The notes beneath the pieces were generated by a model that ran no database searches, was not told the DNA's origin, and saw nothing but the letters and a program-made list of their open reading frames with translations. Below, in pieces: positions 15,438 to 45,765 of a stretch of DNA of 45,765 nucleotides; positions within the stretch are counted from its first letter, which is position 1; each line of letters opens with the position of its first letter. Location: positions 1 through 45,765 of IMG/VR virus record IMGVR_UViG_3300025133_000204; one strand, 5' to 3'. A program made the position numbers and the translations under genes. Source of the stretch: a virus.

Positions 15438-17237
15438 TTGACCGTCAAAAACAGATTTCCAACGATAAATTATACATCCCGAGATTTTAACACAATTAAA
15501 AACGATCTTGTGGATTATGCGAAAAGGTATTATCCAGATACTTTTCAAGATTTCAATGAAGCTGGTTTTGGTTCTTTAATGTTGGATACTGTCTCTTACA
15601 TTGGAGATATTTTATCCTTTTATGTGGATTATAGCGTCAATGAATCTTTTTTAGATACTGCAATTGAATTTGATAATGTCTTAAAACTTGGAAAACAATT
15701 AGGTTATCAATTTCGAGGAAATCCGTCTTCTTTTGGAATGGCTGATTTTTATATCATTGTTCCCGCAAATGAAAATGGAATTGGCCCCAATACAGCCTAT
15801 TTGTGTTATTTGAGGAGAGGGTCAGAATTTTCATCGGCCAGTGGAATTGGGTTTATTTTAAACGAAGACGTAAGTTTTGCTGATACAAGTAACGAAGTGG
15901 TTGTTGCCAAAGTTAATGAATCAACTGGCCTTCCAACTCACTATGCAGTTAAAGCTTCGGGGCAAGTTGTTTCTGGAGAAATAACACAAGAAAAAGTCAC
16001 TATCGGTGGCTATGAAGAATTCAGAAAAATTGCATTAAACGGAAATAACATAACTGAAATTTTATCAGTCACCGATGATCAAGGCTATTCCTATTTTGAA
16101 GTTGATTATTTGTCACAAGATGTTGTTTTTGTTCCTATCAAAAATTATGATTCCAACAGTGGAAAAACGCCATCAGTGATAAAACCAGTTATTGTTCCAA
16201 GGCGATTTACTGTTGAAAAATTGCAGGATACAACTTTCTTGCAATTTGGTGGCGGCACTGAAGTGAGCACTACCGTCGATCCTCTTACAGATCCAAGCAC
16301 AACAATAGTTGATTTTCATGCTAAAGAATTTTTTACTTCTTTATCCTTTGATCCAACCAATCTCCTAAAAACTCCTTCTTTGGGCATTCCTCCATCAAAT
16401 ACTGTTTTAACAATTGCCTATCGAGCCAATACTCAAAGTTCTGTTAATTTGGCACCTACATCATTGACACAAATTAATAATGCCATAATCAACTTTGATG
16501 ACATCGTACAACTTGATTCCTCTGTTGTTAAAGATGTTAAAAGTTCATTGGAAATTTCTAATGCAAATCCTATCAATGGCGATGTGACTACTCCGAGCAT
16601 AGAAGAATTAAAGCTAAGAGTTTATGATACTTTCGCTGCACAACGCAGAGCCGTAACGCAACAAGATTATAAAAGCTTAATCTATGCGATGCCACCTCAA
16701 TTTGGTGCCATTAAAAGAACCAACATTATAAGAGATCCAGATTCTTTTAAGAGAAATCTAAATATCTATGTAATTTCTGAAGATTCCGATGCCGCTTTAG
16801 AAGCGACCAATACAACCATTAAGAATAATTTAAAAACTTGGTTGAACCAAGGAAGAATGCTCAATGATACAATTGATATTATCGATGCAAAAATTGTAAA
16901 CGTTGGAATTGAGTTTGAAGTGGTTGGAGATTTAGAAACAAACAAGTTTCAGATTCTAAACAGATGCGTTCAGTCATTAGCTCTAAGTTATCAAGAAAAG
17001 TTTGAAATTGGAGAGAGATTTGTTATAACAGACATTTATAACATTCTCAATCAAGTAAATGGTGTCGTTGACACCACCAGTGTTAAAATTGCTCCCAAAA
17101 CAGGTATAAACTATTCAGAAACGAGATTTAATTTTGAAAGACAGACATCACCAGATGGAAGATTTATAAATGTTCCAGATAATGTAATAATGGAAATAAA
17201 ATTCCCAAGTGTAGATATTGTAGGAAGCGTTAAATAA
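15438..17237 (+). CDS. Baseplate wedge protein, gp6 / J-like
   Basis: This 599-residue protein (T4 gp6 has 660) carries the J-like baseplate signatures: INYTSRDFNTIKNDLVDYAK at the N-terminus, FQDFNEAGFGSLMLDTVSYIGDILSFYVDYSVNESFLDTA (about residues 35-75), and the C-terminal region with RRAVTQQDYKSLIYAMPPQFGAIKRTNI followed by NIYVISED and LKTWLNQGRMLNDTIDI. gp6 forms the ring dimer that holds the wedges together and drives the baseplate switch. The start is TTG at 15438, nine bases after AGAGG; the upstream ATG at 15433 reads only two codons before TGA. The stop overlaps the next start by one base (TAATG). Confidence 0.93.
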   Translation: MTVKNRFPTINYTSRDFNTIKNDLVDYAKRYYPDTFQDFNEAGFGSLMLDTVSYIGDILSFYVDYSVNESFLDTAIEFDNVLKLGKQLGYQFRGNPSSFGMADFYIIVPANENGIGPNTAYLCYLRRGSEFSSASGIGFILNEDVSFADTSNEVVVAKVNESTGLPTHYAVKASGQVVSGEITQEKVTIGGYEEFRKIALNGNNITEILSVTDDQGYSYFEVDYLSQDVVFVPIKNYDSNSGKTPSVIKPVIVPRRFTVEKLQDTTFLQFGGGTEVSTTVDPLTDPSTTIVDFHAKEFFTSLSFDPTNLLKTPSLGIPPSNTVLTIAYRANTQSSVNLAPTSLTQINNAIINFDDIVQLDSSVVKDVKSSLEISNANPINGDVTTPSIEELKLRVYDTFAAQRRAVTQQDYKSLIYAMPPQFGAIKRTNIIRDPDSFKRNLNIYVISEDSDAALEATNTTIKNNLKTWLNQGRMLNDTIDIIDAKIVNVGIEFEVVGDLETNKFQILNRCVQSLALSYQEKFEIGERFVITDIYNILNQVNGVVDTTSVKIAPKTGINYSETRFNFERQTSPDGRFINVPDNVIMEIKFPSVDIVGSVK

Positions 17238-18817
17238 TGAGCCTAAAAAGATATACAGCAATAGCAGATAATACAATTACGAATGCCTATCAACCCGATA
17301 TGACTACGAGAGGAACTGGCAGTAACATTGGTGCTGCGGATTCTTTAGAAGTATTTTCAATCTTTGCACAAGCCACAAGTTCATCCTATGAAAAAACTAG
17401 AATGTTGATAAAATTTCCAGTAGTGGCTGCTGATGAGATCGGCAGCATTACAAGTATTGCAACTGATAGAACAGCCGGTGACATTCCGGCCAGCGGTAGC
17501 GTTAATTTCTTTTTAAGAATGTTTAACGTGAGAACTGATCAAACACTTCCTCGTGAATTTTATTTAATGTCTGTTCCCGTTTCACAATCCTGGGAAGAAG
17601 GAATTGGAGTTGATTTAGAAACCTATAAAGATTTAACTTACGGTGGAACTGGATCAAATTGGATAAATTCAGCTGCTCATACAACTTGGAAAGTTGCTGA
17701 CGAAGCCGGAACTTTGGTTGTGGTAGAAGGCGGAAGTTATCTAAGCGGAACACAACTCGGAGCAGCAACTGATCGTTATGATGAATTTAATTATACTTCC
17801 TATTTTGACAAAGGCACAGAAGACCTATCAGTAGACATTACGGGTCTTGTTGAACAATGGATTAAAGGAACAGGCGATAGCGGATTTTCCAACTATGGTA
17901 TGGGATTGATGCTGACTGGAAGTCAAGAGAGTGGAAGTCTGAGATCCTATTATACAAAAAGGTTTTCAGCCAGAAGCAGTGAATATTTCTTTAAACGCCC
18001 GATTATTGAAGCAAGATGGGATTCTACTACGCAAGATAATCGTGGAAATTTTGTTTTGTCCAGTTCTGCTCGCTCTCCTTCTAATAATTTAAATACCCTT
18101 TATTTATACAATTATGAAAAAGGACAATTAGCAAACTTCTATCATCCTCAAGGAGAAGTCTCAGGAACGATTTACTTGCAGGTTTATACTTCTGCAAGCA
18201 CAGGAACACAAGTTACAACTACACCAGAAATGATTGTAACTGGTGGTTATGTGAGCACAGGCGTCTATTCTGCTTCATTCGCTGTTGCTTCAAGTAGTGT
18301 TGTTTTTTACGATAGATGGTTTAGTGGTTCTGCCGATACATCTCCTGGTGAATCTCCAACTGTTGTTTATTATCATACAGGTTCGTTTAAACCACAACCA
18401 TATGATTCTTCTGGTTATTACACTATTCCTGATTATGTTACAAATATAACCAATTTAAAACCACGATACAACGAAAATGAACTGGGCCGTTTCAGATTAT
18501 ACACTCGCCAAAGAAATTGGAGCCCAACTATTTATACAGTAGCATCGAAGAACATTGAAACTTCAATAGTCAACGATGCGTATTTTAAAATTTATAGGGT
18601 TGTAGATAATTATCCGGTTATACCATTTGGAACAGGCAGTTTAAACCATACTAGACTTTCTTATGATGTTTCTGGCAGTTATTTTGATTTAGATATGAAG
18701 ATGTTAGAACCTGGTTATTCCTATGGAGTCAAATTTGTTTATAAAATAAATAATTCCTATCAAGAACAGCCAGAGAATTTTCAGTTTAGGATCGAGAAAT
18801 TTAACCCAAATGTATAA
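17237..18817 (+). CDS. Virion structural protein with DNRLRE-like beta domain
   Basis: This is a 526-residue, beta-rich protein. Residues about 20-265 resemble DNRLRE-type carbohydrate or surface modules: FAQATSSSYEKTRMLIKF, then VSQSWEEGIGVDLETYKDL and a NWINSAAHTTWK block, with LVEQWIKGTGDSGFSNYGMGLML later. The C-terminal part (TGSLNHTRLSYDVSGSYFDLDM region) looks like a second beta domain. It follows gp6 with a one-base overlap and precedes the giant LamG protein, so it is likely part of the baseplate periphery or a fibre attachment. The family call is tentative; T4 gp8-11 functional equivalents are possible but not shown. Confidence 0.55.
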   Translation: MSLKRYTAIADNTITNAYQPDMTTRGTGSNIGAADSLEVFSIFAQATSSSYEKTRMLIKFPVVAADEIGSITSIATDRTAGDIPASGSVNFFLRMFNVRTDQTLPREFYLMSVPVSQSWEEGIGVDLETYKDLTYGGTGSNWINSAAHTTWKVADEAGTLVVVEGGSYLSGTQLGAATDRYDEFNYTSYFDKGTEDLSVDITGLVEQWIKGTGDSGFSNYGMGLMLTGSQESGSLRSYYTKRFSARSSEYFFKRPIIEARWDSTTQDNRGNFVLSSSARSPSNNLNTLYLYNYEKGQLANFYHPQGEVSGTIYLQVYTSASTGTQVTTTPEMIVTGGYVSTGVYSASFAVASSSVVFYDRWFSGSADTSPGESPTVVYYHTGSFKPQPYDSSGYYTIPDYVTNITNLKPRYNENELGRFRLYTRQRNWSPTIYTVASKNIETSIVNDAYFKIYRVVDNYPVIPFGTGSLNHTRLSYDVSGSYFDLDMKMLEPGYSYGVKFVYKINNSYQEQPENFQFRIEKFNPNV

Positions 18818-18832: not shown

Positions 18833-21800
18833 ATGGCGAACATTAAAAATCTTTTTAATAATAATCCGAAAAAAATTCTCTCTTCTGCCAGTTTAAATGA
18901 TATCGGAGCTTCTATTGAATCCGCTGATTATGTCAAGAGAAATTTTCAAGACCATCAGAGGTTTATTCCGCATGTAGATTTTACGTCTGCTTCTAATTTC
19001 GCATTTTATGGTTCTGCCGAAAAGTACGGCGATGATGCATTTACTTATATTTCCAACGAATACCCGTATGATGGTTCGCTGAAAGAAAAGATAGAATGGG
19101 AACTCTCAGGAACCTATTACGACAAATACATTTTTGACAGTGTTTATCCGAGGACTACTGGATACATTAATCATGGTTTAGATTATGGAACTGTTATTAC
19201 TATTCCAGAAATCGGCGGCGGATTTTATGATTATAGTCGTCATGAATACATAAAATTTCTTGGTGGACCACATACTGGTTCTAGTAATGTATCTTCTAAT
19301 TTGACTAAAAATTTTACTGGTTCAAATGTTTATAAAGCTAGTGTTAATCAAGAATCTAACATCGAATTAGATGGTGATAGTGGTTTTGCTGTAGAATTCT
19401 GGTTCAAAAAAGATGCATGGGTCGAACCGACTGGTGAATGTAGAGCACAAGTTATTTTAGATATATGGAATAGCTCATCTGCAACACCTGGTCGCCTTAC
19501 AATTTGGGCGGATCGATCTGCCCCAAATGTTTTATTTCTAGAAATTGTATCTGGCTCTGTCCAAACTTACATTTCAGACCTTGGCTCATCGCTGCCCATT
19601 GTAGGGAGCGATTGGAATCATTACGCTTTAAATTTTGAAAATGTAGGAAACGATCTTCAAACTAAACTTTATCTCAATGGCGGTTTAAACAATACCAATA
19701 CGTCAACTGGCAACGCCATTCAGAAAGTTACAGGCTCCTTTTTGGGCTACATTGGCGCTCTTACTAGAGCCACTGAAGTTTTGGGCTACGGCGGCGAAGG
19801 TTACGGTAAACTTTCTGCCTCTCTTGACGAATTTCGCTATTGGAAAACAAAAAGAACACCAGAACAAATTGCTAGAAATTGGTTTACGCAAGTCGCAGGC
19901 GGCACCAACACAGACTATTCCACACTAGGAACAGGCTCTACAAAGTATAGTCCAGGTCGTCCAGTAGATTTGGGTATCTATTATAAATTTAATGAAGGCA
20001 TTTTTGATAGTGGAAGTGCCAATTCAAAAGATGCTGTTGTTTTAGACTATTCAGGACGACTATCAAATGGTAACTGGATCGGCTATTCTCTCGGTGCTCG
20101 CAGCACTGGCTCTGCGATGATTGAAAGTTCTGCGTCTGCGACTGAGTTTAAAGACCCAATCTTGGATCTGGCGAGTCCGCTTGTTAGCGCCTCATTAAGC
20201 GATTTAAAGATAGAAGGGCAATTTTATGATTCTACAAATAATGCCTCCATTTTCCACACACTCCCTGGATGGATACGCGAAGATGATTTAGAAAATAGCG
20301 GTGAAGTTCTTTATAAATTAACCCAAATAATCGGAAGTTATTTCGATACTCTACAACTTCAGATTCAGTCAGTTCCAAGACTCAAAGATCAAAACTATTT
20401 CAGCGGAAGTTATAAACCCTATCCGTTTACCAATAGAATAATTGAAAACCTTGGTTTTGAAGTTGGAGAACTTTTTACCGAAGCAGATGCATTAGAATCT
20501 TGTGCATCAAGAGATGATTTTAGAAATTTTGAACAGAAGTTAAACGAAGTAAAAAATAGAATTTATTCAAACCTTTATAACAATCTAGTTGGAGTTTTAA
20601 AGTCAAAAGGAACAGAAAAAGCATTCAGAAACATTATTAGGTGTTATGGAATAGACGAAAATCTTGTAAAACTAAACCTCTACGCCGATCAATCAGAATA
20701 CATTCTAAGAGATAATTTTGATTCTTCCACAATTCGAAAGAGATATGCCGATTTTAATGCCTACAATCGCGTTGAATCCACAGTCTATCAATCAACATCC
20801 AGTGTCGAAACCGCAAATACTAGAGCCTATCTAAGTTCTTCTGAAGAAATGAAGTATCGTGGCAATACTTTTGAAGCAGAAGTTATCTTTCCACAAAAAA
20901 TCTCACGGGAATTGGACAACTATTTTGCTAATAATTTTGTAGAAAGCTCAATTTTTGGAGCACATACAGTTAATCCAGCTTCTCCAAATGATGATCAATG
21001 GCATCTCCCAGATGCTTCAAATTTTGTTGTTAGTTCTGTTAGACCAAGCCGTGGCTCTGAATCAGTCTATTTTAAATTAAGTGCAAGTTCCGGCTTTAGT
21101 TCTTTCCCAGTTTTAACCAGTTCTTTAATCAATGATGTTTATACAGACACAAGATGGAATTTAAGCGTTAGAGTAAAGCCAAAAGCAAATCCCTATGCGA
21201 GTGATGTTGTTACTGGCAGTATGGATTATGAATACGATGTTATCTTTTCTGGATTTCAACCAATCGCAGATTCATTTCACAATTCGTTTACAGCAACAGG
21301 CACACTTTCAAATGATGCAGGCGTTCAGTTTTTAACAGGTTCTAAAAAAATGTTTGCTGGTGCCCATCGCACAAACTTCACTGGTTCTACAATAACCAAG
21401 TCAGATGTTAAGATTTCTTCTGTTCGCGCTTGGATGGATTACCTAGATGACGCTACAGTTAAATTTCATGCCAAAGATTCTGCAAATTTTGGAACTAAAT
21501 CTCCATTAAAGAGTGCATACATGACTCCAAGTGGAAGCGGCTTTTTTGGCAAAAATGTTGATAAAATTCCACAACTAAAGACACTTGCTATGGATTGGGA
21601 TTTTGAGACTGTCACAAGCTCAACTGCGGCTGGAGTATTTACAGTTCAAGACGCATCATCCGGTTCGCAAGCAGATACTCTCGAATATGGTTGGCTTGGA
21701 CCAATTTCTCTCTATCAACATACTGGTCGTGGCTTTGGATTTCCAGTTTCAAGTACAAGCTCCATTAGTCGAGAGTATGTCCAAACTGCAAAACAATTAC

Positions 21801-24800
21801 TTCCAGAAGTTCTTAATAGTTCTGACATGGTTAATCTTGTTGATTCAAACGATGATTCTTTATTTACACGCGAATCTCGTCCTATTACTTTTTTCTTTGC
21901 AGCCGAAAAGAGCATGTATCGGATAATCTCAGATCAAATTTTAAAGATTTTTGCAACCATTGTTGATTTTAATAATTTAATCGGAGAGCCAGTTAATAGA
22001 TACCGGCCAGAATATAAGCAATTAGAAAAATTAAGAAATGCCTATTTTAAGAGAATTGAAAACAATACTATTGATTTTGAGAAGTTTGTAGATTATTATA
22101 AATGGATCGATCAATCCATTACGATTGCTCTTTTGCAGATTTTCCCTGCGTCCGCAGATTATTCAAATAAACTTTGGACCATGATCGAAAGTCACATTCT
22201 TGAGAGAAATAAATACTGGACCAAATTTCCTCTTGTAAAGAAATTTCCCGCAACTGAAGGTTCTGTTCGCGGCATTAATGAATTAAGTTATAATTGGAAA
22301 TTTGGTCATGCGCCAAATTATCTTCCTATTTCTTTAAATACTAGCTCAAGTATAGTTTGGGGAAACTTGATCAATACTACTGCTTCTGCAAATGGGGGAC
22401 TTAATAAAGGCACTGGCCTTACTGGATATAATGCTTGGGCGTCGGCACCACCCATCGATCAAGATGATGCTTTTACGGTTTCATCCAATTTTACAACCAG
22501 ATTCAATAGCATGTATGTCGGACTTAATACAAGCTCGGCTCCAGAATACGATGTTTCCAATTGGCAATTTTCTTGGCTCTTGGGCGGCGGTCTTTTTGGG
22601 ACTGATGGGTCTGTAGCTGCTAAAGTAGATAATGCTACGGTCTGGTCATGTTTGGAGTGTCTTGATACCACACACTACTATCGAATCAAACGGGAATATG
22701 GAAAAATAATTTTCCAAAGAAGTACGGATGGTAGTGTAACATTTGATGATCTCTACACTCATGAGTCCTCTTGCGGTAATTATGAAGATTTGTATCCCGT
22801 TTTTACTTCTGTGACAGCAGGAGGCAGCAACACAGGACTTTCGGCTGCAACAGCAAGTCAAGGTTCTACTAGTAATTGTCTTTGGTGGAAAGACAGATTC
22901 GAACCATGCGGCACTGACGTTAATAACCAAAGAAATACTTTTAGAATGTTAAATGCAACAACGCCATTTTCTACGGCTAGCATTTCTCAATCTAATGTTT
23001 TTCCAACACTATTTCAACCAGATGGCACAGCCTATTATGGCGATGTTTATGGGATAAGAAATTTTTCTCAAATTTATCAGTTTAAAGTTCAAGAATCTAA
23101 AGAATTTAAAGGTGGTGCGAATGTACCAAGAATAAAAAACCTGCAATATGCTCACACTGAACTTCCATTTGGAACTTCTACACAACTTAAGATTTCAGCT
23201 CCTAGTATTGAAAATAATGATACTTGTAATGATGTAATTGATCCGAACGATAAAGATAGATTAAGTTATAAGTTAATAAACAATCCAACAAGTTACAAAT
23301 CAGGAAAAGGTGAAATCTTTGCGCCATTTAGCTTATTTAGTTCTTCCGTCACAACTGGATATGTTGCAGACCTGGCATCAAATTTCAAAACAAGTACAGA
23401 TTTGGTTAATTATCATAACGACGTTTATGGCGGCGATAACGAAGTCCCACTGCAAGGTCCATTCACAGAAAAGTATGTCGGTGGTCGAGAATACAGACAT
23501 GTGCGTTTTCCAACTACAAGCAGCACTGTAAGACCAGAAGCTTGGGATCTAGACCTTGAGTTGGGCAATCAAAAAAGTATTCAATTTGATAATTCCAACA
23601 ATAACGAATGTATTACAGTAGCATCATCTTCCGCAATACCCGCAGGTTTTGCTGATGGCGATTTTTCAGTTTCCGTATGGGTATATGGCACTGGTGGGAA
23701 AACAACTTGTGATAAGGTATTTGATAGAGGATCAAGCACTTGGGCAAACGGCTGGGGAATGAACCTCGGATGTAGTGATTCAACAAAAATGACCTTTTGG
23801 GTCGGTCAATACACCCGTTTTGCCGAAGCAGCCTTCGCTGAAGATGAGTGGGTTCATTATATAGCAACGTATAATCAATCAGATGAAGAATTCATTATTT
23901 ATAGAAATGGTGTAGCGGGGACGACTCAAACAAGATTGGCTGGTGCAATTCGCACAACGCCACTTTTTATTGGAAATAGTGATCCAACATCCACTTCAAA
24001 TTATACTTGGCCGGGATATATAAATGATGTTGTTTTTTGGAGAAATACGTTAAGCCAAGAAGAAATCACAGCCATTTATAATGACGGTTGTACTCTAGAC
24101 CCAAGATTTGCTCGAACTGCGGAGAATAGCAGAGTAGCTCGTCCAGTCAGTTGGTTTAGAATGGGTGATGATGATACATACCCAATTATTAAAAATGTAA
24201 TAAATTCAGCAGCCAGTGGCACGATGACCAATATGGCTGCTGATGATATAGTTTTAGCATCACCTTGTTCTAGCAGTAACAAACTAGCAATAAAAACCCG
24301 CACAGCTCACCAACCACGTTCAACAATTTTACGTGAACCTCTTGCCAAACGCCCAGTAAACATTCGTAACATTCGAATGACAACTGGTTCAACAATTCTT
24401 GGAAACTATGAACGTTCCTATGAATTAGTTCAAACAAATGGCAGATCTATAAACAATAGATTCTTTGTTAAGTCTGGTGGATTTATTCCAACAGCATCAG
24501 CATCGACCTATTTGGTAAACACTGTTGAGTATGCGTTGCCGAGATTTGATTTAACAGGAACTAATCAATACATCTTTGTTAATCATTTTAATGCTCCGGG
24601 TGGACCTGATGTTTCCTCAAGAGGCGTTTTAGATTACATAGCAGAAGAATATGCAATCTATAATGATTTAAATTTTAGAAATTCGGTTGTCAGAGATGCA
24701 TTAAAAGAATGGCAAACTGAATACTGTGGACAGTTTGGGATTAAACCTCCAAATACTGCAAGCGCATTAAATTACGATACGAGCGCATCCTATCAGAAAG

Positions 24801-27800
24801 TTAATCGCAACACAAGGATTTTAGCAGCAACTACAACCACAACTGGGACTTTGCGGGACAATTGGTTTGTTCAACATGCAATTCCACAAAGCGCATATCA
24901 GTATAGTTGGATTACTGCATCCGTTAGTAAAAGCGCAACAGACATTGAAGAAATGGCCTATGGTTATACTTCAAATGCCAGCATTCCGTCTGGAACAACC
25001 TCTATGACTCAATCAATGCCACCATTTATTTTGGCAAGTGATAGCGGATCAGGTCCAGTTTTGAGTGATTTTGTTGGATTAAATACACTTATTTATGATC
25101 CATTAAATTCAAGTGAACGAATTTTAAGTGCTTCTGATGACATTTATCGAAACGATTTTTTGACGGGAGGCTTAAAACAAGCCAGCGTCTTGAACGCACT
25201 TCTTTTGCATAGAAATGGACCCTATCAAAATCCGTCTTGGAAGCAAATTAGAGGTTATGAAAATCCGATTGTTCGCAATCAGCGAAACAACAACATTTTA
25301 AGTATGAGAGAACAGCCTTCCGATTCTCTCTATGTTGATAGTAAATTAGGAAGAAGAATTGATCCAGGCGTAAGTGGAACTGCTGTTAAGTTTATGCCGC
25401 CCTTCCGTTCTAAAACAAATAAAACTCCAACAACTTTATGGGTTACTGCAAGCCTTACAGAACCGCCAGTCTCATTTAAATATAAGCCGATTGTAACTGT
25501 TTTGAGATCAAATGATGCCACGGAAAAATGCGATTTTACTTATCTTGCACATTCTTATGGAAATAACATCGCAACTTTTGCGAACAATACATTTATAGAC
25601 CTGTTGGCAATTGACGAAGACTTGGTTGAAAGCCGACAAAACTATCACAAAATAAGAAAACTTTATGAAAATAATGCGTCTGCTGTTTTAAAGAAATTTA
25701 CTTACGGCGAAGTTGTTTATCCTCGTGATGTTAATACTGGTCTTAATAAAGTTAGAATGCGAACAAATTATGCGGAAGTTGCAAACAGTATTGGAAGTAA
25801 TGGTATAAATCGCGGACTCTTATCTCGTAGAACTTTTTGGAGAAATTCGAGAGATGACAGAATTCAGGGAAGATGGTCTGGTTCAGCGGGTGTTACAACG
25901 CCAGCCTATAACACACTTAATTTTCCCGATCAAGGAGCGATGAGCGTTTGGCCTTTAGATAGTATTTTAAATGCTGAATTTCCTGGTTGTGAAGGCGCAA
26001 GTGCAGGAGAAGACCAATATTATCCTGGCTCTGAGTTGATTAGATATAGCACAGGACATGCAGTGGTAGCTCCTATGTTTTTCACGGGCGCTTCCGGCCC
26101 CGATGCCGCACCAAATTCAAGGTATGATGGACAACAGACTACAGCTTCACTATTATACGCATATGAAGCTTCTTATCAGACACCTATCACCAGCGTTGAT
26201 AACGTAGAATGGGTTACAAATCGTGAAGCACCTTATGGTTCAGGAATAAATCCTTGGTTTGATTCCTACGAAGAATATTCTAATGATATTAAACGAGTTG
26301 CTAAAGAGTTTACAATTTTGCCAGAGTTTAAAATTTCAGATCACGTAGATTATTACGTGAATGAAAATGGAGGAGATTTTAGAGTAATAAACAACAACTT
26401 CTTAGATCTTGATGGCGCTTCTATAACTTCTAGTGCTGATTCTGCGACTGCAAATCTTAATCAAGAGTTTTTTGCCACCTATTCGAATTCTGATTTTCAA
26501 AAGTATTTTGGAACGTTTTCTGACGATGCTGCGTTAAACAAAATTACTTTAACGTGTAATGGTGTTAAAAAACTGCTCCCTTATAATGGGTTCTATCCCG
26601 TATTAAGAACCACACAAATTGGAGGCATTTTATCTCAATCTCTTGCTTCAAGCATTGGCGGAATTGGAATTAAAGATGGGCAACCAATAAGTTCTGAGTT
26701 TGGATTATCTGGTACTTTATCCGTTCAATCTGCCATGCAACCATTTTTTGCTCCCGGTGTGATGTTTAATTCTATTAAATCGGGTATTGCAGTCGATTGG
26801 CCTGTTTTTACAGGATCGTTAAATGTTTCTGCATCAACTGCGGGTGCTTTTTATGTTGGGGGTATGATAACCGAGACTCCAAACTATAGAATACCATTCG
26901 AGTCGTTAGTTTCTTTTGCAGATCATATTCCAATTTCGTCTTCTGATGGAGAGGGGAAGGTGAGTTTATTGGATACCAATGGTTTCGGATATCTCGTTCA
27001 AGGCTCTCACGAGAGATTACCTTATTTTGATTGGAATGGTTCAATAAAACCAACTTTTGAAATGGCCACTAACAACTTCTTAGCAGAAGTTCCCAATTTC
27101 TTTTTGAAAGATAATTCTTTTACAGTAATTGCTTCAAACCCTGAAAATCAATTTAAAACGTTCAAATCAGGTTCTTCCTATTATATGGACGTATTTTTGG
27201 AAATGCCGTGGTCAGGATCTTCTCGTACCGTTATGTTTGAAGGTAAAAATAGTCCCGGCGATCCCGATATAACACTCCCAACAACCACTTTACCAACTTC
27301 GGGCTCAAACCCAGAGGTAAAAGGGCTTCGAGGCAAGTGGTTCGGCCCTACTTACCAATTTACCAGTTCTTATTGGCAGCAAGACGATTCGGCTATTGGC
27401 AATAATTTAAATCTAGATCCAGCCCAAGCCCCTTGCACACCACCCTATTATTATGGAAAAAGTATTGCAACTATTAAGTACGTCTCAGATGGAACAGAAT
27501 CAGGCGCTGGAATTTTGGAAAAGATTTTATCCCAAGCAGAAATAACTTATTCAAATCCTGAATTGTTAAAAATGGTTGCTGGTGATGAAGGCACGAATTC
27601 ACCCGCAATTCAGGGAGCGATGATGCTTTCATCATCCTTAAATTTGCTTGGTAAAACAAGACTAAAACAAATAGAATATAACTTAAACCAAAGCAAGGGG
27701 AATCAATTTGTACCTGCTACTGCAAAAGACCCTGCTGATTCTTCTTTTGATGCGTGGGCGATTAGTCCAAAATTTGAAACTCCAATTTTGGATTTTTCGA

Positions 27801-28762
27801 ATCAAGTTAGTTGTGGTCAAAGTGGACTTCTTAATACAGCCCGTGGAATGTGGTCTGGTTATGGCGAATTTTGCACTGGTAGCAAAGGACTAATTTTAGG
27901 AATCGAAGAAACTTATCCAACATTACCACAAGGTTCGGGAGAAAATACAACAGGATTAACAGGTTCTTTGTTGAAACAATGCGGTTTCGACTCAGCTAAA
28001 AAACGCGAGAAAGTTGGAGAAATTGCAGATAAAAAAGTCATTTCAGAAGCTATTGTAGCAATTCCTTATTTGGAAGGTTCAATTCCATCTAAAACTTCTT
28101 TTGCAAAAACTATCGGAAGCCCAATTTTACAAAAATGGTTCTTTACATTGTCTGGAAAAACCAAGAAACAATCCAGAAAATTGTATAATCAAACAAAAAT
28201 AAATGTTCAAAATGATGTTGAGCCTTTGACTAATTTGCCGTTTAAAACAACAGACGCAATTACAGAAACATCAGTTTCAGATTTAACGGAGAAAATGGAG
28301 AATTATGTTATCCCTCCACAACTGAATTTTGATCTTTATTCTGACATTGAGCCATTTGTAATGTATTTTATGGAATTTGAACATGAACTAGATCGTCAAG
28401 ATTTGGCAGACATTTGGCAGGGAGTAATGCCAAAAATTTCAAGAATTGCAGAAAAAGACACATCTATAGTCGAGCATCAAGTTGCGCCTTGGGAATTCTT
28501 CGGCGGACAACAACTTCCAGAAGGAATAAAATGGATGGTATTTAAAGTTAAGAAAAAGGCAGCAATTAATTATTTCGCAGCCACAGCAGATTCATCGGAT
28601 GATGATCGCTTTAAATTTAACTTTAAAAACAACAAAAATGCAGTCCCTGATTATAGTTATAACTGGCCCTATGATTACTTTTCACTTGTAGAGTTAGCTC
28701 AAATTGAAGTAGAAGATGAGTTTAAAACTGTTCGGAATGTACCAGGCGAGGAAGAAACGTAA
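18833..28762 (+). CDS. Giant baseplate protein with two LamG domains and a gpI/gp7-like segment (3309 aa)
   Basis: This is one 3309-residue frame. Residues about 165-350 form a LamG/concanavalin-like jelly roll (SGFAVEFWFKKDAW, DWNHYALNFENVG, LDEFRYWKTKRTPEQIARNW). A second LamG lies at about 1577-1755 (DFSVSVWVYGTGG, EWVHYIATYNQSDEEFIIYRNG, NDVVFWRNTLSQEEITAIYN). Between them, residues about 470-625 resemble P2 gpI / the I-like part of T4 gp7 (HTLPGWIREDDLENSG, then LKSKGTEKAFRNIIRCYG), which contacts gp6 in the wedge. The gene follows gp6 after one intervening gene, as expected for a gp7 equivalent. LamG domains commonly bind glycans, so a receptor or cell-surface contact role is plausible. 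The C-terminus (about 3150-3309) has a further folded domain ending in YNWPYDYFSLVELAQIEVED. No break or frameshift was seen. Confidence 0.65.
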   Translation: MANIKNLFNNNPKKILSSASLNDIGASIESADYVKRNFQDHQRFIPHVDFTSASNFAFYGSAEKYGDDAFTYISNEYPYDGSLKEKIEWELSGTYYDKYIFDSVYPRTTGYINHGLDYGTVITIPEIGGGFYDYSRHEYIKFLGGPHTGSSNVSSNLTKNFTGSNVYKASVNQESNIELDGDSGFAVEFWFKKDAWVEPTGECRAQVILDIWNSSSATPGRLTIWADRSAPNVLFLEIVSGSVQTYISDLGSSLPIVGSDWNHYALNFENVGNDLQTKLYLNGGLNNTNTSTGNAIQKVTGSFLGYIGALTRATEVLGYGGEGYGKLSASLDEFRYWKTKRTPEQIARNWFTQVAGGTNTDYSTLGTGSTKYSPGRPVDLGIYYKFNEGIFDSGSANSKDAVVLDYSGRLSNGNWIGYSLGARSTGSAMIESSASATEFKDPILDLASPLVSASLSDLKIEGQFYDSTNNASIFHTLPGWIREDDLENSGEVLYKLTQIIGSYFDTLQLQIQSVPRLKDQNYFSGSYKPYPFTNRIIENLGFEVGELFTEADALESCASRDDFRNFEQKLNEVKNRIYSNLYNNLVGVLKSKGTEKAFRNIIRCYGIDENLVKLNLYADQSEYILRDNFDSSTIRKRYADFNAYNRVESTVYQSTSSVETANTRAYLSSSEEMKYRGNTFEAEVIFPQKISRELDNYFANNFVESSIFGAHTVNPASPNDDQWHLPDASNFVVSSVRPSRGSESVYFKLSASSGFSSFPVLTSSLINDVYTDTRWNLSVRVKPKANPYASDVVTGSMDYEYDVIFSGFQPIADSFHNSFTATGTLSNDAGVQFLTGSKKMFAGAHRTNFTGSTITKSDVKISSVRAWMDYLDDATVKFHAKDSANFGTKSPLKSAYMTPSGSGFFGKNVDKIPQLKTLAMDWDFETVTSSTAAGVFTVQDASSGSQADTLEYGWLGPISLYQHTGRGFGFPVSSTSSISREYVQTAKQLLPEVLNSSDMVNLVDSNDDSLFTRESRPITFFFAAEKSMYRIISDQILKIFATIVDFNNLIGEPVNRYRPEYKQLEKLRNAYFKRIENNTIDFEKFVDYYKWIDQSITIALLQIFPASADYSNKLWTMIESHILERNKYWTKFPLVKKFPATEGSVRGINELSYNWKFGHAPNYLPISLNTSSSIVWGNLINTTASANGGLNKGTGLTGYNAWASAPPIDQDDAFTVSSNFTTRFNSMYVGLNTSSAPEYDVSNWQFSWLLGGGLFGTDGSVAAKVDNATVWSCLECLDTTHYYRIKREYGKIIFQRSTDGSVTFDDLYTHESSCGNYEDLYPVFTSVTAGGSNTGLSAATASQGSTSNCLWWKDRFEPCGTDVNNQRNTFRMLNATTPFSTASISQSNVFPTLFQPDGTAYYGDVYGIRNFSQIYQFKVQESKEFKGGANVPRIKNLQYAHTELPFGTSTQLKISAPSIENNDTCNDVIDPNDKDRLSYKLINNPTSYKSGKGEIFAPFSLFSSSVTTGYVADLASNFKTSTDLVNYHNDVYGGDNEVPLQGPFTEKYVGGREYRHVRFPTTSSTVRPEAWDLDLELGNQKSIQFDNSNNNECITVASSSAIPAGFADGDFSVSVWVYGTGGKTTCDKVFDRGSSTWANGWGMNLGCSDSTKMTFWVGQYTRFAEAAFAEDEWVHYIATYNQSDEEFIIYRNGVAGTTQTRLAGAIRTTPLFIGNSDPTSTSNYTWPGYINDVVFWRNTLSQEEITAIYNDGCTLDPRFARTAENSRVARPVSWFRMGDDDTYPIIKNVINSAASGTMTNMAADDIVLASPCSSSNKLAIKTRTAHQPRSTILREPLAKRPVNIRNIRMTTGSTILGNYERSYELVQTNGRSINNRFFVKSGGFIPTASASTYLVNTVEYALPRFDLTGTNQYIFVNHFNAPGGPDVSSRGVLDYIAEEYAIYNDLNFRNSVVRDALKEWQTEYCGQFGIKPPNTASALNYDTSASYQKVNRNTRILAATTTTTGTLRDNWFVQHAIPQSAYQYSWITASVSKSATDIEEMAYGYTSNASIPSGTTSMTQSMPPFILASDSGSGPVLSDFVGLNTLIYDPLNSSERILSASDDIYRNDFLTGGLKQASVLNALLLHRNGPYQNPSWKQIRGYENPIVRNQRNNNILSMREQPSDSLYVDSKLGRRIDPGVSGTAVKFMPPFRSKTNKTPTTLWVTASLTEPPVSFKYKPIVTVLRSNDATEKCDFTYLAHSYGNNIATFANNTFIDLLAIDEDLVESRQNYHKIRKLYENNASAVLKKFTYGEVVYPRDVNTGLNKVRMRTNYAEVANSIGSNGINRGLLSRRTFWRNSRDDRIQGRWSGSAGVTTPAYNTLNFPDQGAMSVWPLDSILNAEFPGCEGASAGEDQYYPGSELIRYSTGHAVVAPMFFTGASGPDAAPNSRYDGQQTTASLLYAYEASYQTPITSVDNVEWVTNREAPYGSGINPWFDSYEEYSNDIKRVAKEFTILPEFKISDHVDYYVNENGGDFRVINNNFLDLDGASITSSADSATANLNQEFFATYSNSDFQKYFGTFSDDAALNKITLTCNGVKKLLPYNGFYPVLRTTQIGGILSQSLASSIGGIGIKDGQPISSEFGLSGTLSVQSAMQPFFAPGVMFNSIKSGIAVDWPVFTGSLNVSASTAGAFYVGGMITETPNYRIPFESLVSFADHIPISSSDGEGKVSLLDTNGFGYLVQGSHERLPYFDWNGSIKPTFEMATNNFLAEVPNFFLKDNSFTVIASNPENQFKTFKSGSSYYMDVFLEMPWSGSSRTVMFEGKNSPGDPDITLPTTTLPTSGSNPEVKGLRGKWFGPTYQFTSSYWQQDDSAIGNNLNLDPAQAPCTPPYYYGKSIATIKYVSDGTESGAGILEKILSQAEITYSNPELLKMVAGDEGTNSPAIQGAMMLSSSLNLLGKTRLKQIEYNLNQSKGNQFVPATAKDPADSSFDAWAISPKFETPILDFSNQVSCGQSGLLNTARGMWSGYGEFCTGSKGLILGIEETYPTLPQGSGENTTGLTGSLLKQCGFDSAKKREKVGEIADKKVISEAIVAIPYLEGSIPSKTSFAKTIGSPILQKWFFTLSGKTKKQSRKLYNQTKINVQNDVEPLTNLPFKTTDAITETSVSDLTEKMENYVIPPQLNFDLYSDIEPFVMYFMEFEHELDRQDLADIWQGVMPKISRIAEKDTSIVEHQVAPWEFFGGQQLPEGIKWMVFKVKKKAAINYFAATADSSDDDRFKFNFKNNKNAVPDYSYNWPYDYFSLVELAQIEVEDEFKTVRNVPGEEET

Positions 28763-40738: not shown

Positions 40739-41262
40739 TTCTAGGATTAGATATATCGACATCCATCACAGGCTATACAATCTTAAATTCAGAAGGAGAG
40801 ATTGTTAAAATTGGTCATTGGGATTTGAGGAATAAAAAGTATTTCCCAGATTTATTTTCCAAAGCTAAATTTATTAAGAATAAGCTTGGCGAACTTAATT
40901 ATAAAATTAATCATGTCTTTATTGAGCCAGCCCTCAACATGTTTATGATGGGTCGTTCTTCTGCTCACACTATTTCAACTTTAATTAAATTTAATGGCAT
41001 TATCTCTTGGATGTGCTATGAACAATTTGGGATTGAACCTGAATTTATTCCTGCTATTTCCGCCCGCAAAAAATGCGGCATTTCTATAAAACGGGGCACA
41101 AAAGCTAAAGAACAAGTAATGGCTTTTTTGCTTGACAATGAACCCAATTTTCGTGTAGAATTAACAAAGAATGGAAACCCAAAACCATATTGTTATGATG
41201 AAGCGGATTCATTAATAATAGCGCGGGCAGGAATTGAATGTCTCAAAAGCAAATTAAAATAA
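40735..41262 (+). CDS. RuvC-like Holliday-junction resolvase
   Basis: This is a 175-residue RNase H-fold nuclease that would resolve branched DNA before packaging, the job done by endonuclease VII in T4. The RuvC acidic residues are visible: Asp6 in MILGLDISTS, Glu64 in VFIEPAL, and Asp155/Glu156 with Asp158 in YDEADSLIIARAG. The middle (AHTISTLIKFNGIISWMCYE, then FIPAISARKKCGI) follows the family order. The start is TTG at 40735, giving MILGLDIS, with the upstream stop overlapping it. It shares 25 bases with the primase gene, so the two are probably co-translated. Confidence 0.87.
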   Translation: MILGLDISTSITGYTILNSEGEIVKIGHWDLRNKKYFPDLFSKAKFIKNKLGELNYKINHVFIEPALNMFMMGRSSAHTISTLIKFNGIISWMCYEQFGIEPEFIPAISARKKCGISIKRGTKAKEQVMAFLLDNEPNFRVELTKNGNPKPYCYDEADSLIIARAGIECLKSKLK

Positions 41263-42149
41263 TAAAAGATTTTCTCGGATCTCATTATAAATCCAAAGAT
41301 GAGTATCTTTTTTATTGTCCGAAATGCAAACACCACAAAAGAAAACTTTCTTTAAATTTTGACAAAAATGTTTTTAAATGTTGGATCTGCGATTATATTG
41401 GAAAAGACATTGGAAGATTAGTTTATTCCTATGGCACACCAGAGAACAAAAGACAATGGAAAGTAATCGCTGGTGTTGTCGATTTTTCAGAATTGGACGA
41501 GAAAGAAGAAAAGCTAACAGTAAAATTACCAGAAGAATTTATTACATTAACTGGAAAGAAGGTAAAGCCTTTATCAATTCCTGCTAGAAAATACTTGAAG
41601 GAAAGAAATTTAACAAGAAGCGATCTTGTTTGGTGGAAGATAGGTTATTGTCCAGATGGAGAATTTGAGAAAAGAATTATTATTCCCTCATTCGATCTAA
41701 GTGGAAGTGTAGATTATTTTATTGCTCGCTCATACACTTCTGGTTCTTGGCAAAAGTATAAAAATCCACCTTCAGAAAAAGATTTTATCTTTAATGAACT
41801 GTATCTTGATTGGAATAGTGGTGTGACAATTGTTGAAGGAGTTTTCGATGCGATGGTCGCCGGTAATGCTATTCCTTTATTGGGCTCTACATTACGTGAA
41901 AATAGCTATGTTTTTCAAAAAATCCTAGACAACTGTCAAGAGATTTACATCGCCCTCGATGCAGACGCCACAGAAAAAGAATTAAAAATAGGCAAACTAT
42001 TTATGTCATATGGCGTGGATGTTTACAGGATTGATACTTCGGGGTTTGGAGACATTGGAGAGATGGATAAGGAAACATTCCAAACTCGCAAGAAAACTGC
42101 CACTTTTCTTTCTTTAGATAACTATTTAGTGGAGAAACTTTCGTTTTAG
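41238..42149 (+). CDS. DnaG/gp61-like DNA primase
   Basis: This is a 303-residue compact primase. A CHC2-type zinc ribbon lies at the N-terminus with Cys27, Cys30, Cys48 and Cys51 (CPKC and CWIC). A short RNA-polymerase-like N-domain (LKERNLTRSDLVWWKIGYCP, RIIIPSFDLSG) and a Toprim domain follow. Toprim acidic residues are Glu200 in VEGVFDAM and Asp241/Asp243 in ALDADAT. It would lay RNA primers for lagging-strand synthesis with a helicase partner not in this window. T4 gp61 has 342 residues, so the size fits a phage primase without a fused helicase. It overlaps the resolvase gene by 25 bases. Confidence 0.88.
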   Translation: MSQKQIKIIKDFLGSHYKSKDEYLFYCPKCKHHKRKLSLNFDKNVFKCWICDYIGKDIGRLVYSYGTPENKRQWKVIAGVVDFSELDEKEEKLTVKLPEEFITLTGKKVKPLSIPARKYLKERNLTRSDLVWWKIGYCPDGEFEKRIIIPSFDLSGSVDYFIARSYTSGSWQKYKNPPSEKDFIFNELYLDWNSGVTIVEGVFDAMVAGNAIPLLGSTLRENSYVFQKILDNCQEIYIALDADATEKELKIGKLFMSYGVDVYRIDTSGFGDIGEMDKETFQTRKKTATFLSLDNYLVEKLSF

Positions 42150-42205
42150 GAGAAAAAATGAAAATTACAAAAGCAAAACTTCAAAAACTTATTAAAGAGG
42201 AATTG
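42147..42205 (+). repeat. Leader cassette, copy 1 (stop + ribosome site + 16-codon leader)
   Basis: From the primase stop TAG, the sequence TAGGAGAAAA is followed by an ATG (42158) and codons for MKITKAKLQKLIKEEL. The same arrangement recurs at 42530. Over the 16 leader codons the two copies differ at six of 48 bases, while the proteins diverge completely afterwards. Confidence 0.75.
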
Positions 42206-42532
42206 GCAGAAATTTCCGAACCGTCTTATAATTTTGCTCCAAAAGCAGATCCTGAATTTGGAAACAGACCTGAAGATTTAGCCAAAGATGCTGAAAGATT
42301 AAAAGGGCATCTTGGAACTGATATGGCTTATATAACAGATCTTCACACAGGCATTGGAGAACTTGCTGAAAAGCATGGCGGAAAAGTTGCTAAAGATATT
42401 TATGATGCTTTAAGAAAGGCAGCAAGCGATCATTACACCCGTGTGATGATGGCAGTGCAAGAGGTTGGCAAAGCTCATGGTGGAGACATCGATGAAGACA
42501 TTTATTACTTTTTTGAAGAATTTGATACCTAG
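42158..42532 (+). CDS. Small protein with duplicated MKxTKxKLQxxIKEE leader, unknown function
   Basis: This is a 124-residue, mostly helical acidic protein. The first 16 residues (MKITKAKLQKLIKEEL) form a basic amphipathic helix shared with the next protein. IKEE contains the [L/I]-x-E pattern used by T4-type prohead proteases. After a Pro/Ala-rich hinge (about 20-40), two or three charged helices follow (AYITDLHTGIGELAEKHGG, DIYDALRKAASDHYTRVMMAVQEV), ending in a very acidic tail (DIDEDIYYFFEEFDT). A strong ribosome site (TAGGAG) precedes the ATG. If the leader is a capsid-targeting signal, this would be an internal virion protein, but that is inference. Confidence 0.6.
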   Translation: MKITKAKLQKLIKEELAEISEPSYNFAPKADPEFGNRPEDLAKDAERLKGHLGTDMAYITDLHTGIGELAEKHGGKVAKDIYDALRKAASDHYTRVMMAVQEVGKAHGGDIDEDIYYFFEEFDT

Positions 42533-42591
42533 GAGAAAAGAAGGTGAAACTTACAAAAACAAAACTTCAACAAATTATTAAAGAGGAATTT
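42530..42591 (+). repeat. Leader cassette, copy 2 (stop + ribosome site + 16-codon leader)
   Basis: From the stop TAG of the upstream gene, TAGGAGAAAA leads to GTG at 42544 and codons for MKLTKTKLQQIIKEEF. It is the partner of the copy at 42147. The upstream stop and Shine-Dalgarno are part of the duplicated unit, with three extra bases before the start. Confidence 0.75.
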
Positions 42592-43083
42592 GAAAAGGTC
42601 ATTTACGAAGGTGGGGAGTTTCCTCACGATTTGTGGAAAGAATATGGAGTGCTAAAAAACAGGGCTCCTCTTTTTGCCCTTATGGATGAATTGGGCGAGA
42701 GGTTTGAAGACCTATTGCAACTTAAACAGGCTTATCAGCAAGCCTCCGATTCTGAAGGCGAAGTAGAAGATGAAGATGGTGTTATGCAGAGTGTCTCATA
42801 TGTTGAAGGATCCAAAATAGTTTCTCAAGCGGAAAGTTTGTTGAATGACCTGGGAATTAAATTCGCCAGAAATATTGCGAATCGTTTATTAAAGGGTCAC
42901 GGCCACTATTATTTTCGCGATGACCCAAACGTAATGAAAGCACGCTATGAAGAATTGAAGGGTCAATTTAAGACTAAACCTGAAGACAATTTAGAGGGTG
43001 GTAATTATATAACTACTATTACACACACTCCATCTGGCACTTCAACCAGCGAAGAAAGCGGGATGGCAAAATACGGTTCTTAA
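42544..43083 (+). CDS. Second protein with duplicated MKxTKxKLQxxIKEE leader, unknown function
   Basis: This is a 179-residue protein. Residues 1-16 (MKLTKTKLQQIIKEEF) match the leader of the preceding protein at 11 of 16 positions. The rest is different: a helical acidic domain (FALMDELGERFEDLLQLKQAY), an acidic loop (SEGEVEDEDG), a basic/aromatic patch (RLLKGHGHYYFRDDP) and a Ser/Thr/Gly-rich tail (TPSGTSTSEESGMAKYGS). GTG at 42544 is chosen for its ribosome site and the leader match. No enzymatic motif is visible. The stop is followed within ten bases by the promoter of the Mre11-Rad50 gene, so this gene probably ends the upstream transcription unit. Confidence 0.6.
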   Translation: MKLTKTKLQQIIKEEFEKVIYEGGEFPHDLWKEYGVLKNRAPLFALMDELGERFEDLLQLKQAYQQASDSEGEVEDEDGVMQSVSYVEGSKIVSQAESLLNDLGIKFARNIANRLLKGHGHYYFRDDPNVMKARYEELKGQFKTKPEDNLEGGNYITTITHTPSGTSTSEESGMAKYGS

Positions 43084-43128: not shown

Positions 43129-45765
43129 ATGAAATTTGCCCACATCGCGGACACCCACATACGCAATCTTAAATACCACACAGAATATCAAACAATTTTT
43201 AATAAAATCTATGACGATCTTAAAAAAGAGCAAGTAGATTGTATTGTTCACTGTGGAGACATTTGCCACACAAAGACACAAATCTCGCCAGAGTATGTGG
43301 AAATGACCTCAAATTTTCTATCAAGTTTAGCCGACATAGCTCCGACTTACATTATTTTAGGAAATCACGATGGAAATCTCAGAAATGAAAATCGTCAAGA
43401 TTCAATCACTCCGATCATTGATGCGTTAAATCATAAAAATTTACACCTTCTAAAGAATTCTGGTGAAACAAAATTAAATGATAATTTTACATTAAATGTT
43501 CTTTCAGTCTTTGATGACACAAATTGGAAAAAACCAACCGATAAAAACAAGACAAACATCGCTCTCTATCACGGTTCTGTGAGTGGGTGTTTGACTGACA
43601 TTGGTTGGAAAATGGAACATGGCGAAAATGAAATTTCAATTTTTAAAGACTTCGATTATGCGATGCTTGGAGATATACATTTAGAAAATCAAATACTCGA
43701 CAAAGAAGGTCGCATCCGATACGCAGGTTCAACCATTCAACAAAACTTTGGAGAATCAACTTGTAAGGGTTTTTTGCTTTGGGACATCAAAGATAAAGAA
43801 AACTTTACTTGTAAACCATTTCTATACACAAGTCCAAAGCCATTTATCTCAGTGTCGTTAACAGCTGATGGGAAAATACCTGAACTCGAAATCCCGGAAG
43901 GTGCTCGTGTGCGATTGATGGTTGAAAATAGCTTGTCTGTGATAGCTCTCAAAAAAGCTGTCGATGTCGCAAAAAAGACATTTAAACCAGAGTCTATTTC
44001 TGTAATCAATAAAGCGACCTTCATAAACAATGTGGAATTTGAAGAAGGCTTTAAAAAAGAAAATTTAAGAGATCTTGTAGTCCAAGAAAAATTAATTCGT
44101 GAATACTTGGAAGATTATAGGATTAATAAAAATTTAGAAAAGCGGATCATGGAACTCAATAAAAAGTATAAACAGATTGTTGAAGAAACTGATGAAACAT
44201 ATCGTAATACAGACTTTGAAATTCTTGAACTCAAATGGGATAACCTGTTTAATTACGGAAAAGGCAATCGCATTAACTTCACGAATTTCACTGGAATTAC
44301 GGGGATTTTTGGGAAGAACTTTTCTGGCAAGTCAAGTATCGTTGATTCACTTTTGTTCACGATTTATAACTCAATTTCAAAGAATTCTCGCAAAAACATC
44401 AACATTATCAACAATGACAAGACCACAGGAATGGGTCGAGTAAGAATCAAGCGTGGAACCAAAATTTATACAATTACAAGGCGTATGGAAAAGTGGTTAA
44501 AAAAATTAAAAGGTAATGAAACTGTCGAAGCCCGAACAATTGTTGATTTTGAATGTTATGATCTTGTAAGCGAAAAAAACACTTCGTTAAATGGTGTGAC
44601 AAGAGCCGAAACAGATCGAAACATTGTTAAGTATTTCGGAACAATTGATGACTTCCTTTTAACATCAATGTCTTCTCAACTTGGATCTTTGGCTTTTATT
44701 AATGAAGGTTCAACAAAGAGGAAAGAAATTCTTGCAAAGTTTCTTGATCTTGAACTTTTTGATAAGAAATTTAAAAATGCAAAAGACGACGCAGCAGAAT
44801 TAAAGGCCAAGATTAAAATTTTAGAAAATGTTGACTATGATTCAGAACTGAAAAAACATAGAGATTTGCTCTTTGACAATGAGATAACAACTCTTAAGAG
44901 AAAAAATAAGTGTCAATTATTGAAAGATGAAATTGGAAAAAATCAAAAAGAAGTGATCGAGTTGGAAAATAAAATAAATTCAGCTCCAACTGAGATTATA
45001 AATATTGTCAATGTTCGCAAAGGAATCAGTGAAAACGAACAAAAATTATTAACTTATGAAAAAGAAATTGTAGAGCAAGAAGAAGATAACGAAAAAAATA
45101 AAAATAAAATTGAAAAAGCAAATGAATTTTTAAAGACTTTTGAACTTGAAGCTTTGACTCAAAAGAAAGCGCAAATTTCAGATATGGAAAAAGAGTTAGA
45201 AAATTTATTAGAAGAAATAAAATTCGATAACCTAGAACTACAGCGAAAAGAATCTCAAACGAAACTCTTGGATGTAGTCCCATGTGGTCCTGAGTTTTCT
45301 CATTGTAAATTTATTCGTCATGCCTATGAAGCAAAAGAATCAATCCCAACATTTCATCTTTCAATAGATAACAATAATAAAATTTTGGATTTGTTAAATG
45401 ATAAAATTTCAGATTTAGATTCAGAAAAGGTGGAAAGCGAGCTTGAAAAATTTAATCATCTTTTGCAACTAAAAAAAGAATTAGAAAACAAAACTCCTTC
45501 AAATGAACTTCTTGTCGAAAATTATAAATCAAAAAAATCAATTGTTGAATTAGAATTAATAAATTTGCAAAGAAAAGAAAAGATTTATGAAAAGAATAAA
45601 GAGGTTATTGAAGATTTAGAAGGAATTATAAAGGACAAAAACAAGGTCCAGTCTCAACTGATAAATTATAATAATGATCTTGAAGGGTGTGAAAGCGCTT
45701 TATTAGAACTTTATAAATCTCATGGATATCTTGAACAGAGAATTGAAAATTTAGAACAAAAGCAA
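43129..45765 (+). CDS. Single-chain Mre11-Rad50 (SbcD-SbcC / gp47-gp46) recombination protein, 3'-partial
   Basis: The frame is open for all 879 codons to the window end. Residues 1 to about 335 are an Mre11/SbcD-type nuclease: Asp8-Thr-His10, Gly43-Asp44, Gly-Asn79-His80-Asp81, His148 in YHGS, and Gly-Asp182-Ile-His184, plus the YAGSTIQQNFGE capping strand. After a helical linker (about 335-365) a Rad50/SbcC ATPase begins: LKWDNLFNYGKGNRI, Walker A GKNFSGKS (395-402) and a Q-loop-like SMSSQ near 515. From about 545 a long coiled coil runs to a hook-like Cys719-x6-Cys726 and then returns. Walker B and the signature motif must lie beyond the window. In T4, gp46/gp47 are separate genes processing DNA ends for recombination-dependent replication. 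The start is fixed by the family's MKFxHIADTH opening. No ribosome site is visible. Confidence 0.9.
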   Translation, partial: MKFAHIADTHIRNLKYHTEYQTIFNKIYDDLKKEQVDCIVHCGDICHTKTQISPEYVEMTSNFLSSLADIAPTYIILGNHDGNLRNENRQDSITPIIDALNHKNLHLLKNSGETKLNDNFTLNVLSVFDDTNWKKPTDKNKTNIALYHGSVSGCLTDIGWKMEHGENEISIFKDFDYAMLGDIHLENQILDKEGRIRYAGSTIQQNFGESTCKGFLLWDIKDKENFTCKPFLYTSPKPFISVSLTADGKIPELEIPEGARVRLMVENSLSVIALKKAVDVAKKTFKPESISVINKATFINNVEFEEGFKKENLRDLVVQEKLIREYLEDYRINKNLEKRIMELNKKYKQIVEETDETYRNTDFEILELKWDNLFNYGKGNRINFTNFTGITGIFGKNFSGKSSIVDSLLFTIYNSISKNSRKNINIINNDKTTGMGRVRIKRGTKIYTITRRMEKWLKKLKGNETVEARTIVDFECYDLVSEKNTSLNGVTRAETDRNIVKYFGTIDDFLLTSMSSQLGSLAFINEGSTKRKEILAKFLDLELFDKKFKNAKDDAAELKAKIKILENVDYDSELKKHRDLLFDNEITTLKRKNKCQLLKDEIGKNQKEVIELENKINSAPTEIINIVNVRKGISENEQKLLTYEKEIVEQEEDNEKNKNKIEKANEFLKTFELEALTQKKAQISDMEKELENLLEEIKFDNLELQRKESQTKLLDVVPCGPEFSHCKFIRHAYEAKESIPTFHLSIDNNNKILDLLNDKISDLDSEKVESELEKFNHLLQLKKELENKTPSNELLVENYKSKKSIVELELINLQRKEKIYEKNKEVIEDLEGIIKDKNKVQSQLINYNNDLEGCESALLELYKSHGYLEQRIENLEQKQ

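Follow-up and report, generated by a model that had tools for sequence, protein, structure and literature searches.

The window, by which we mean the whole stretch of DNA that was analysed, is a 45.8-kb virus record carrying tail and baseplate genes (including a gp25-type gene at 15023), a primase gene and an SbcC-like gene. The record is probably a fragment, and no head genes are present on it. In the tail and baseplate region there are two very large ORFs, at 5987-14938 (2983 aa) and 18833-28762 (3309 aa). Two small genes with a common N-terminal leader, here called tagged genes, lie between the primase and the SbcC-like gene. The features of this region are as follows (↓ marks a candidate cut):

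41238..42149, plus strand: DnaG-type primase gene, the left neighbour (phrog_47, E 1.3e-34; PF08275)
42147..42157, plus strand: Shine-Dalgarno region preceding gene 1, which shares bases with the primase stop; ordinary, and outside the tag
42158..42532, plus strand: tagged gene 1, 124 aa (ORF list and sequence)
42158..42205, plus strand: leader 1, MKITKAKLQKLIKEEL, which fits the leader consensus of at least 251 proteins
42203..42220, plus strand: two candidate cuts in gene 1, L16-A-E18↓I and I19-S-E21↓P, both poorer than the typical site (sequence)
42530..42539, plus strand: stop codon of gene 1, sharing bases with the gene 2 Shine-Dalgarno region
42544..43083, plus strand: tagged gene 2, 179 aa, with a GTG start (ORF list and sequence)
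42544..42591, plus strand: leader 2, MKLTKTKLQQIIKEEF (sequence and leader consensus)
42601..42612, plus strand: candidate cut in gene 2 at I20-Y-E22↓G23 (the nearest relative, L185, likewise has I-x-E↓G)
43129..45765, plus strand: SbcC/gp46-47-like gene, running off the window (Pfam, synteny)

The DNA of the two leaders (42158-42205 and 42544-42591) is identical at 42 of 48 bases, exactly as and where a sequence-only reading of this DNA had reported, and the peptide common to both ORFs is MKxTKxKLQxxIKEE, the remainder of the proteins being unrelated. A 29-base leader pattern matches the window twice, both times at the leaders, where shuffles expect 0, and TAGGAGAAAA is present in exactly two copies (42147 and 42530; 0.22 expected). 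The same reading had held the mature parts to be dissimilar, and indeed the two bodies do not resemble each other and neither matched a Pfam or PHROG family. AlphaFold models of both proteins are of low confidence (mean pLDDT 57 and 51); the sequence of the leader is that of a basic amphipathic helix, and these low-confidence models likewise predict one.

Viral contigs were scanned with a degenerate pattern for MK[ILMV]TKx[QK]L[KRQ][QK][IL]I[KR]EE, and at least 120 stretches matched. The leader begins at least 251 distinct proteins, in the form MK[IL]TKxQLKQIIKEE[LI] with the consensus MKITKSQLKQIIKEEL. Among the matches listed, the tagged proteins have a median length of 108 aa, up to at least seven are found in one stretch of less than 10 kb, and the 235 complete cargos fall into 185 clusters (first 25 residues removed; threshold E<1e-3). 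The suggestion that the leader is a portable tag on assorted small proteins, to be found again in relatives, was thereby borne out, with at least 185 unrelated cargo clusters. Comparison of 143 cargo representatives with Pfam and PHROGs returned few families, none of them seen in more than two members. In four tagged stretches (L066 1675-2940, L048 4014, L059 484 and L094, minus strand) there are proteins with an internal second leader-like stretch, as if two tagged genes had fused.

Whole tagged records carry one to six pattern matches per genome and none to the reversed pattern. Only 2 of 84,980 bacterial and archaeal species genomes contain the strict pattern; both are metagenome-assembled and encode a gp21-type protease, in one case on the tagged contig itself. 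PBIO01000025.1 and NHDW01000006.1 (L354 and L355), from a Halobacteriovorax and a Methylococcaceae MAG respectively, hold runs of tagged genes and look like phage contigs binned with bacteria. On C5, a 305-kb contig of one of the two metagenome-assembled genomes, there are 18 looser matches and 18 consecutive leader-bearing genes; since tagged genes and a gp21-type protease share this one contig, it is probably a jumbo phage. When the leader and two tagged proteins were compared with cultured phages by short-peptide tblastn, no usable match came back, although so short a query may be filtered, and the open-access literature searched yielded no publication that names these leaders. The tagged phages are uncultured, mostly marine and T4-like, and number in the hundreds.

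The sequence-only reading had included the stop codon and the Shine-Dalgarno sequence in the duplicated cassette. This part was rejected: the 10-mer TAGGAGAAAA occurs in only 2 of the 251 tagged genes listed, both in the window, and is therefore an ordinary Shine-Dalgarno sequence, so that the portable unit is the peptide and not the stop, Shine-Dalgarno and leader DNA together. A recent duplication of DNA within the genome as the sole origin of the leaders was likewise rejected, because the copies of the leader carry different synonymous codons. Codon similarity of leaders is 0.667 within a contig and 0.559 between contigs, above the codon-usage control (0.498 and 0.446), which argues that some leader copying does occur; despite this copying of DNA, sequence comparison indicates that the peptide is what is conserved.

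Behind the leader, one probable exchange of cargo was seen. In comparison with the nearest relative, L185, DNA identity is 73-77% in the flanking genes, 83% in leader 2 and 97% in the core of cargo 2; a core at 97% in such a background has probably been swapped recently, with identity stepping up at or close to the leader. In the same relative, unrelated sequence takes the place of the second half of cargo 1 (window 42281-42532), and the relatives of gene 1 in L185 and L050 have the leader and an N-terminal part in common with it and nothing further.

The prohead protease that the sequence-only reading had proposed to look for was found in the lineage, the window fragment itself being without head genes. 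A gp21-type protease (Peptidase_S77, PF03420, over the Pfam cut-off) is encoded by 18 of 24 tagged viral records and by 13 of the 14 tagged records of at least 99 kb, and 15 of the 18 protease-bearing records also encode a gp23-type capsid protein (PF07068). By sequence, the genomes carrying the leader are T4-type. Some tag blocks precede the terminase and portal genes and others sit between portal and protease, a slot that genes 67 and 68 occupy in T4. The same arrangement is evident in 80 loci collected by the protease alone, regardless of the tag. These contain 24 tags, all on the protease strand, of which 9 lie at most 1 kb upstream of the protease (between portal and protease), 15 at -8 to -10 kb (preceding the terminase) and 0 elsewhere; the reversed motif gave 0 matches in these loci. 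A tag is present in the flank examined in 20 of the 80 loci, and in 11 of the 23 with at least 9 kb upstream, while 679 kb of HTVC010P-type podovirus loci, used as a non-T4 control, contained 0 tags. A conserved small protein of the head region, MKKSELKxxIKPLxKECIxE, has a similar helix at its start. As for the window, its genes are collinear with those of G005 and G012; in both, the tags and head genes come after the SbcC-like gene (immediately after it in G012). G013 carries a tag in the exact primase-SbcC slot of the window and encodes both the gp21-type protease and gp23. From this synteny it is very probable that the window derives from a phage of this type, the head genes being located past the window's right end.

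T4 gp21 cleaves after L/I-X-E (PMC9026906). In the leader proteins listed, [LIVM]xE with the E at position 20-25 is found in 136 of 237, against 33±5 after residue shuffling and 79±5 after column shuffling, kinship being ignored in these counts. The residue that follows this motif behind the leader is enriched for G and A, and where an aliphatic residue stands at 19 or 20 the residue two on (P1) is E in 59% and D in 5%. Independently of this, LLENQAxxLL[RK]E↓[AST] is conserved at the propeptide end in the capsid proteins of tagged phages, and the putative post-leader site [LIVM]-x-E matches the LL[RK]E↓[AST] of the same phages' capsid proteins. Part of the LxE signal could come from a continuing amphipathic helix.

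The cut after I-x-E that the earlier reading had drawn from the T4 pattern is supported in that L/I-x-E sites are enriched; the IKE of the leader itself appears to be the cut chiefly in variants ending IKE↓A/S/T. A second site downstream is found in 241 of 314 leaders with E15 (IKE↓E) and in 15 of 46 leaders with IKE↓(A,S,T,G,V,C) (Fisher 6e-9, kinship ignored). This contrast is seen in both sets, the jumbo one and the other, and is absent at control positions 30-37; it fits IKE being itself the site if a small residue follows, a second site being needed otherwise; 73 of the 314 E15 leaders are without one. In E15 leaders, those of both window genes among them, the main cut is thus predicted to fall probably after the second L/I-x-E, near residues 18-22, and not at IKE. 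Gene 2 of the window has a good site of this kind (IYE22↓G, with ISE↓G in its relative) and gene 1 has poor ones only (LAE↓I and ISE↓P).

The cargo bodies avoid the same motif. [LI]xE is found in them at 0.90 of shuffled expectation, against 1.29 in background genes of the same contigs, and [LI]xE[AGSTV] at 0.69 against 1.35 (permutation p 2e-4, kinship ignored), with no significant depletion of [LI]xD, [LI]xK or [VM]xE. Cargo that is exposed to the protease and has to come through whole would be expected to show such avoidance. In the small jumbo-phage set of MKITK leaders the effect did not reach significance, and it is not universal among head proteins, because the mature capsid protein is not depleted.

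The leader is not the only one of its kind. Clustering of N-termini gave a second leader, MA[RI]RKN[KT]xx[IF]DPRYF[LM]xE, on 27 proteins with largely unrelated bodies, which has an [LIM]xE end in 27 of 27 and is found in the same blocks as the MKITK tags; the first 20 proteins clustered belong to 19 cargo families. Genes with this leader are located as follows:

L165, 19609-19944, minus strand: RKN-type leader genes (N-terminal clustering)
L167, 387-758 and 6281-6739, and L170, 2317-2580: RKN-type leader genes
L023, 678; L098, 401 and 895; L111, 301 and 1401: RKN-type leader genes

A third leader, MKHLRQYIRQILxE, ends in [LIM]xE in 17 of the 17 proteins listed (two of these entries are alternative starts of a single gene). 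It is carried by a long run of unrelated genes (L358 16151-19579 and L359 1-6929) on NHDW01000006.1, a jumbo-phage-like contig of 305 kb assigned to the Methylococcaceae MAG TMED69, with cargos that include HD, PAP2 and Zeta-toxin-kinase-like proteins. One 305-kb contig has about 40 leader-bearing genes of all types, about 25 of them of the MKITK type. In the public 484-kb phage LR756508.1 (L362, 151967-193517) about 20 genes have looser leaders of the same type, in a block upstream of and around a T4-like head module, and several neighbours of 250-280 aa start with MKxKxLLKE and contain a YRGT motif. Identification of these last proteins as Alt-like ADP-ribosyltransferases on account of the YRGT motif was not retained, as neither Pfam nor PDB comparison supported it.

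On these sequence data we consider it likely that the leader acts as a propeptide which, in the manner of the T4 internal proteins, targets exchangeable cargo to the capsid and is removed by the prohead protease. The basic amphipathic helix MK[IL]TKxxLKQIIKEE would dock the tagged protein onto the prohead core, and the gp21-type protease would then cut after an L/I-x-E located at the leader or shortly after it (about residues 18-22), or after IKE14 where a small residue follows. The mature protein would stay in the head and be ejected with the DNA. A small gene acquiring the leader would become virion cargo, and as this would apply to any small gene, cargo could be swapped between phages. The features by which a T4-type CTS system can be recognised in sequence are present in the lineage, the window itself being without the head region.

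Tagged proteins could instead be components of the prohead core or scaffold, like T4 gp67 and gp68, whose helix joins the core and which the protease degrades, with nothing delivered. The position of some tagged genes directly upstream of the protease, in the gp67/68 slot, and the similar helix at the start of the MKKSELKxxIKPLxKECIxE protein would suit this explanation, which we nevertheless judge unlikely: at least 185 unrelated cargos in rapid exchange are unlike a core structure, enzyme folds (Zeta-toxin-type kinase, HD, PAP2) are found among the cargos of the parallel leaders, and the bodies avoid L/I-x-E, whereas core proteins are cut repeatedly (PMC9026906). Less probable again is that the leader is an expression or recombination cassette, providing a good translation start or a homology arm with no address at the level of the protein. 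The codon likeness within contigs and the change of identity around the leader where cargo is swapped are what such a cassette would produce, and it may exist as a side effect of capsid targeting; conservation is however at the amino acid level, with many synonymous changes, the upstream DNA is not common to tagged genes, the tags are confined to two slots near head genes in the protease-anchored loci, and the L/I-x-E statistics have no place in this model. That the helix, basic and amphipathic by sequence and in the low-confidence models, serves oligomerisation or binds a membrane or host partner unrelated to the capsid is the least probable of all, given the head-gene slots, the co-occurrence with the protease and the cut-site statistics.

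Beyond the capsid-targeting propeptide itself, it is plausible, though a little less likely than not, that these uncultured phages of the T4 superfamily have a modular system for loading effectors into the virion, with several interchangeable leaders (MKITK..IIKEE, MKHLRQYIRQILxE and RKN..DPRYFLxE) that might serve different places or stages in the assembly of the head, tens of different proteins per phage, and cargo traded via recombination around the leader. The internal proteins of T4 include the restriction inhibitor IPI and the RNA polymerase modifier Alt, and to our knowledge internal cargo of this style has come to light phage by phage. With a recognisable leader, packaged and probably injected proteins could be predicted directly from metagenomes; the leader gives a catalogue of the proteins that such phages may carry into their hosts, and would make candidate anti-defence or takeover factors of hundreds of small genes of unknown function. 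Two questions become testable, namely how the prohead core recognises a short helix and how phages exchange delivered cargo.

Among known systems the closest is the CTS of T4 (IPI to IPIII and Alt; gp21). A short N-terminal CTS suffices for capsid targeting (PMC9026906, PMC5694885), and the internal proteins of T-even phages are diverse with the conserved CTS alone in common (PMC3012670). Both systems have a short N-terminal propeptide with an L/I-x-E end on unrelated small proteins, a gp21-type protease and gp23-type capsid protein in the same genomes, and cargo varying behind a conserved leader (PMC3012670, PMC9026906). The present leader differs in its sequence and its greater length (16 plus about 5 residues), in being known from sequence alone, in the up to 18 consecutive tagged genes, the about 25 on one 305-kb contig and the parallel leader types, and in belonging to uncultured, mostly marine lineages. 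Its resemblance to the T4 sequence is a general one (a helix ending in I-x-E), the leader being too short for homology to be judged.

The giant phages phiKZ and SPN3US likewise have N-terminal propeptides on ejected head proteins which are removed by the prohead protease at x-x-E, with redundant sites (PMC5694885, PMC9026906); those of SPN3US are mostly longer than 100 residues with no single short sequence, in distinction to the one 16-residue consensus described here. In phage P1 the N-terminal signal of DarB is enough for a reporter to be loaded (PMC9024508), but no common consensus was found among the Dar proteins, where here it is clear. The cultured Flavobacterium phage immuto (NC_055915) has a related gp23 and, adjacent to the terminase, genes with short leaders ending in L/I-x-E, one of them MKKSQLRQIIKEAL. 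The MKITK pattern had no match in the whole immuto genome, whose leaders differ: immuto (L190) carries its own at 10730-12030, 6287-7045 and 16677-17759 (MxNFxLxxFLxENKLTxNxxxLKE and the one just named) beside terminase and protease, and one body in these head-region genes reads HFIAEA. As a cultured T4-like phage, immuto offers a practical test system.
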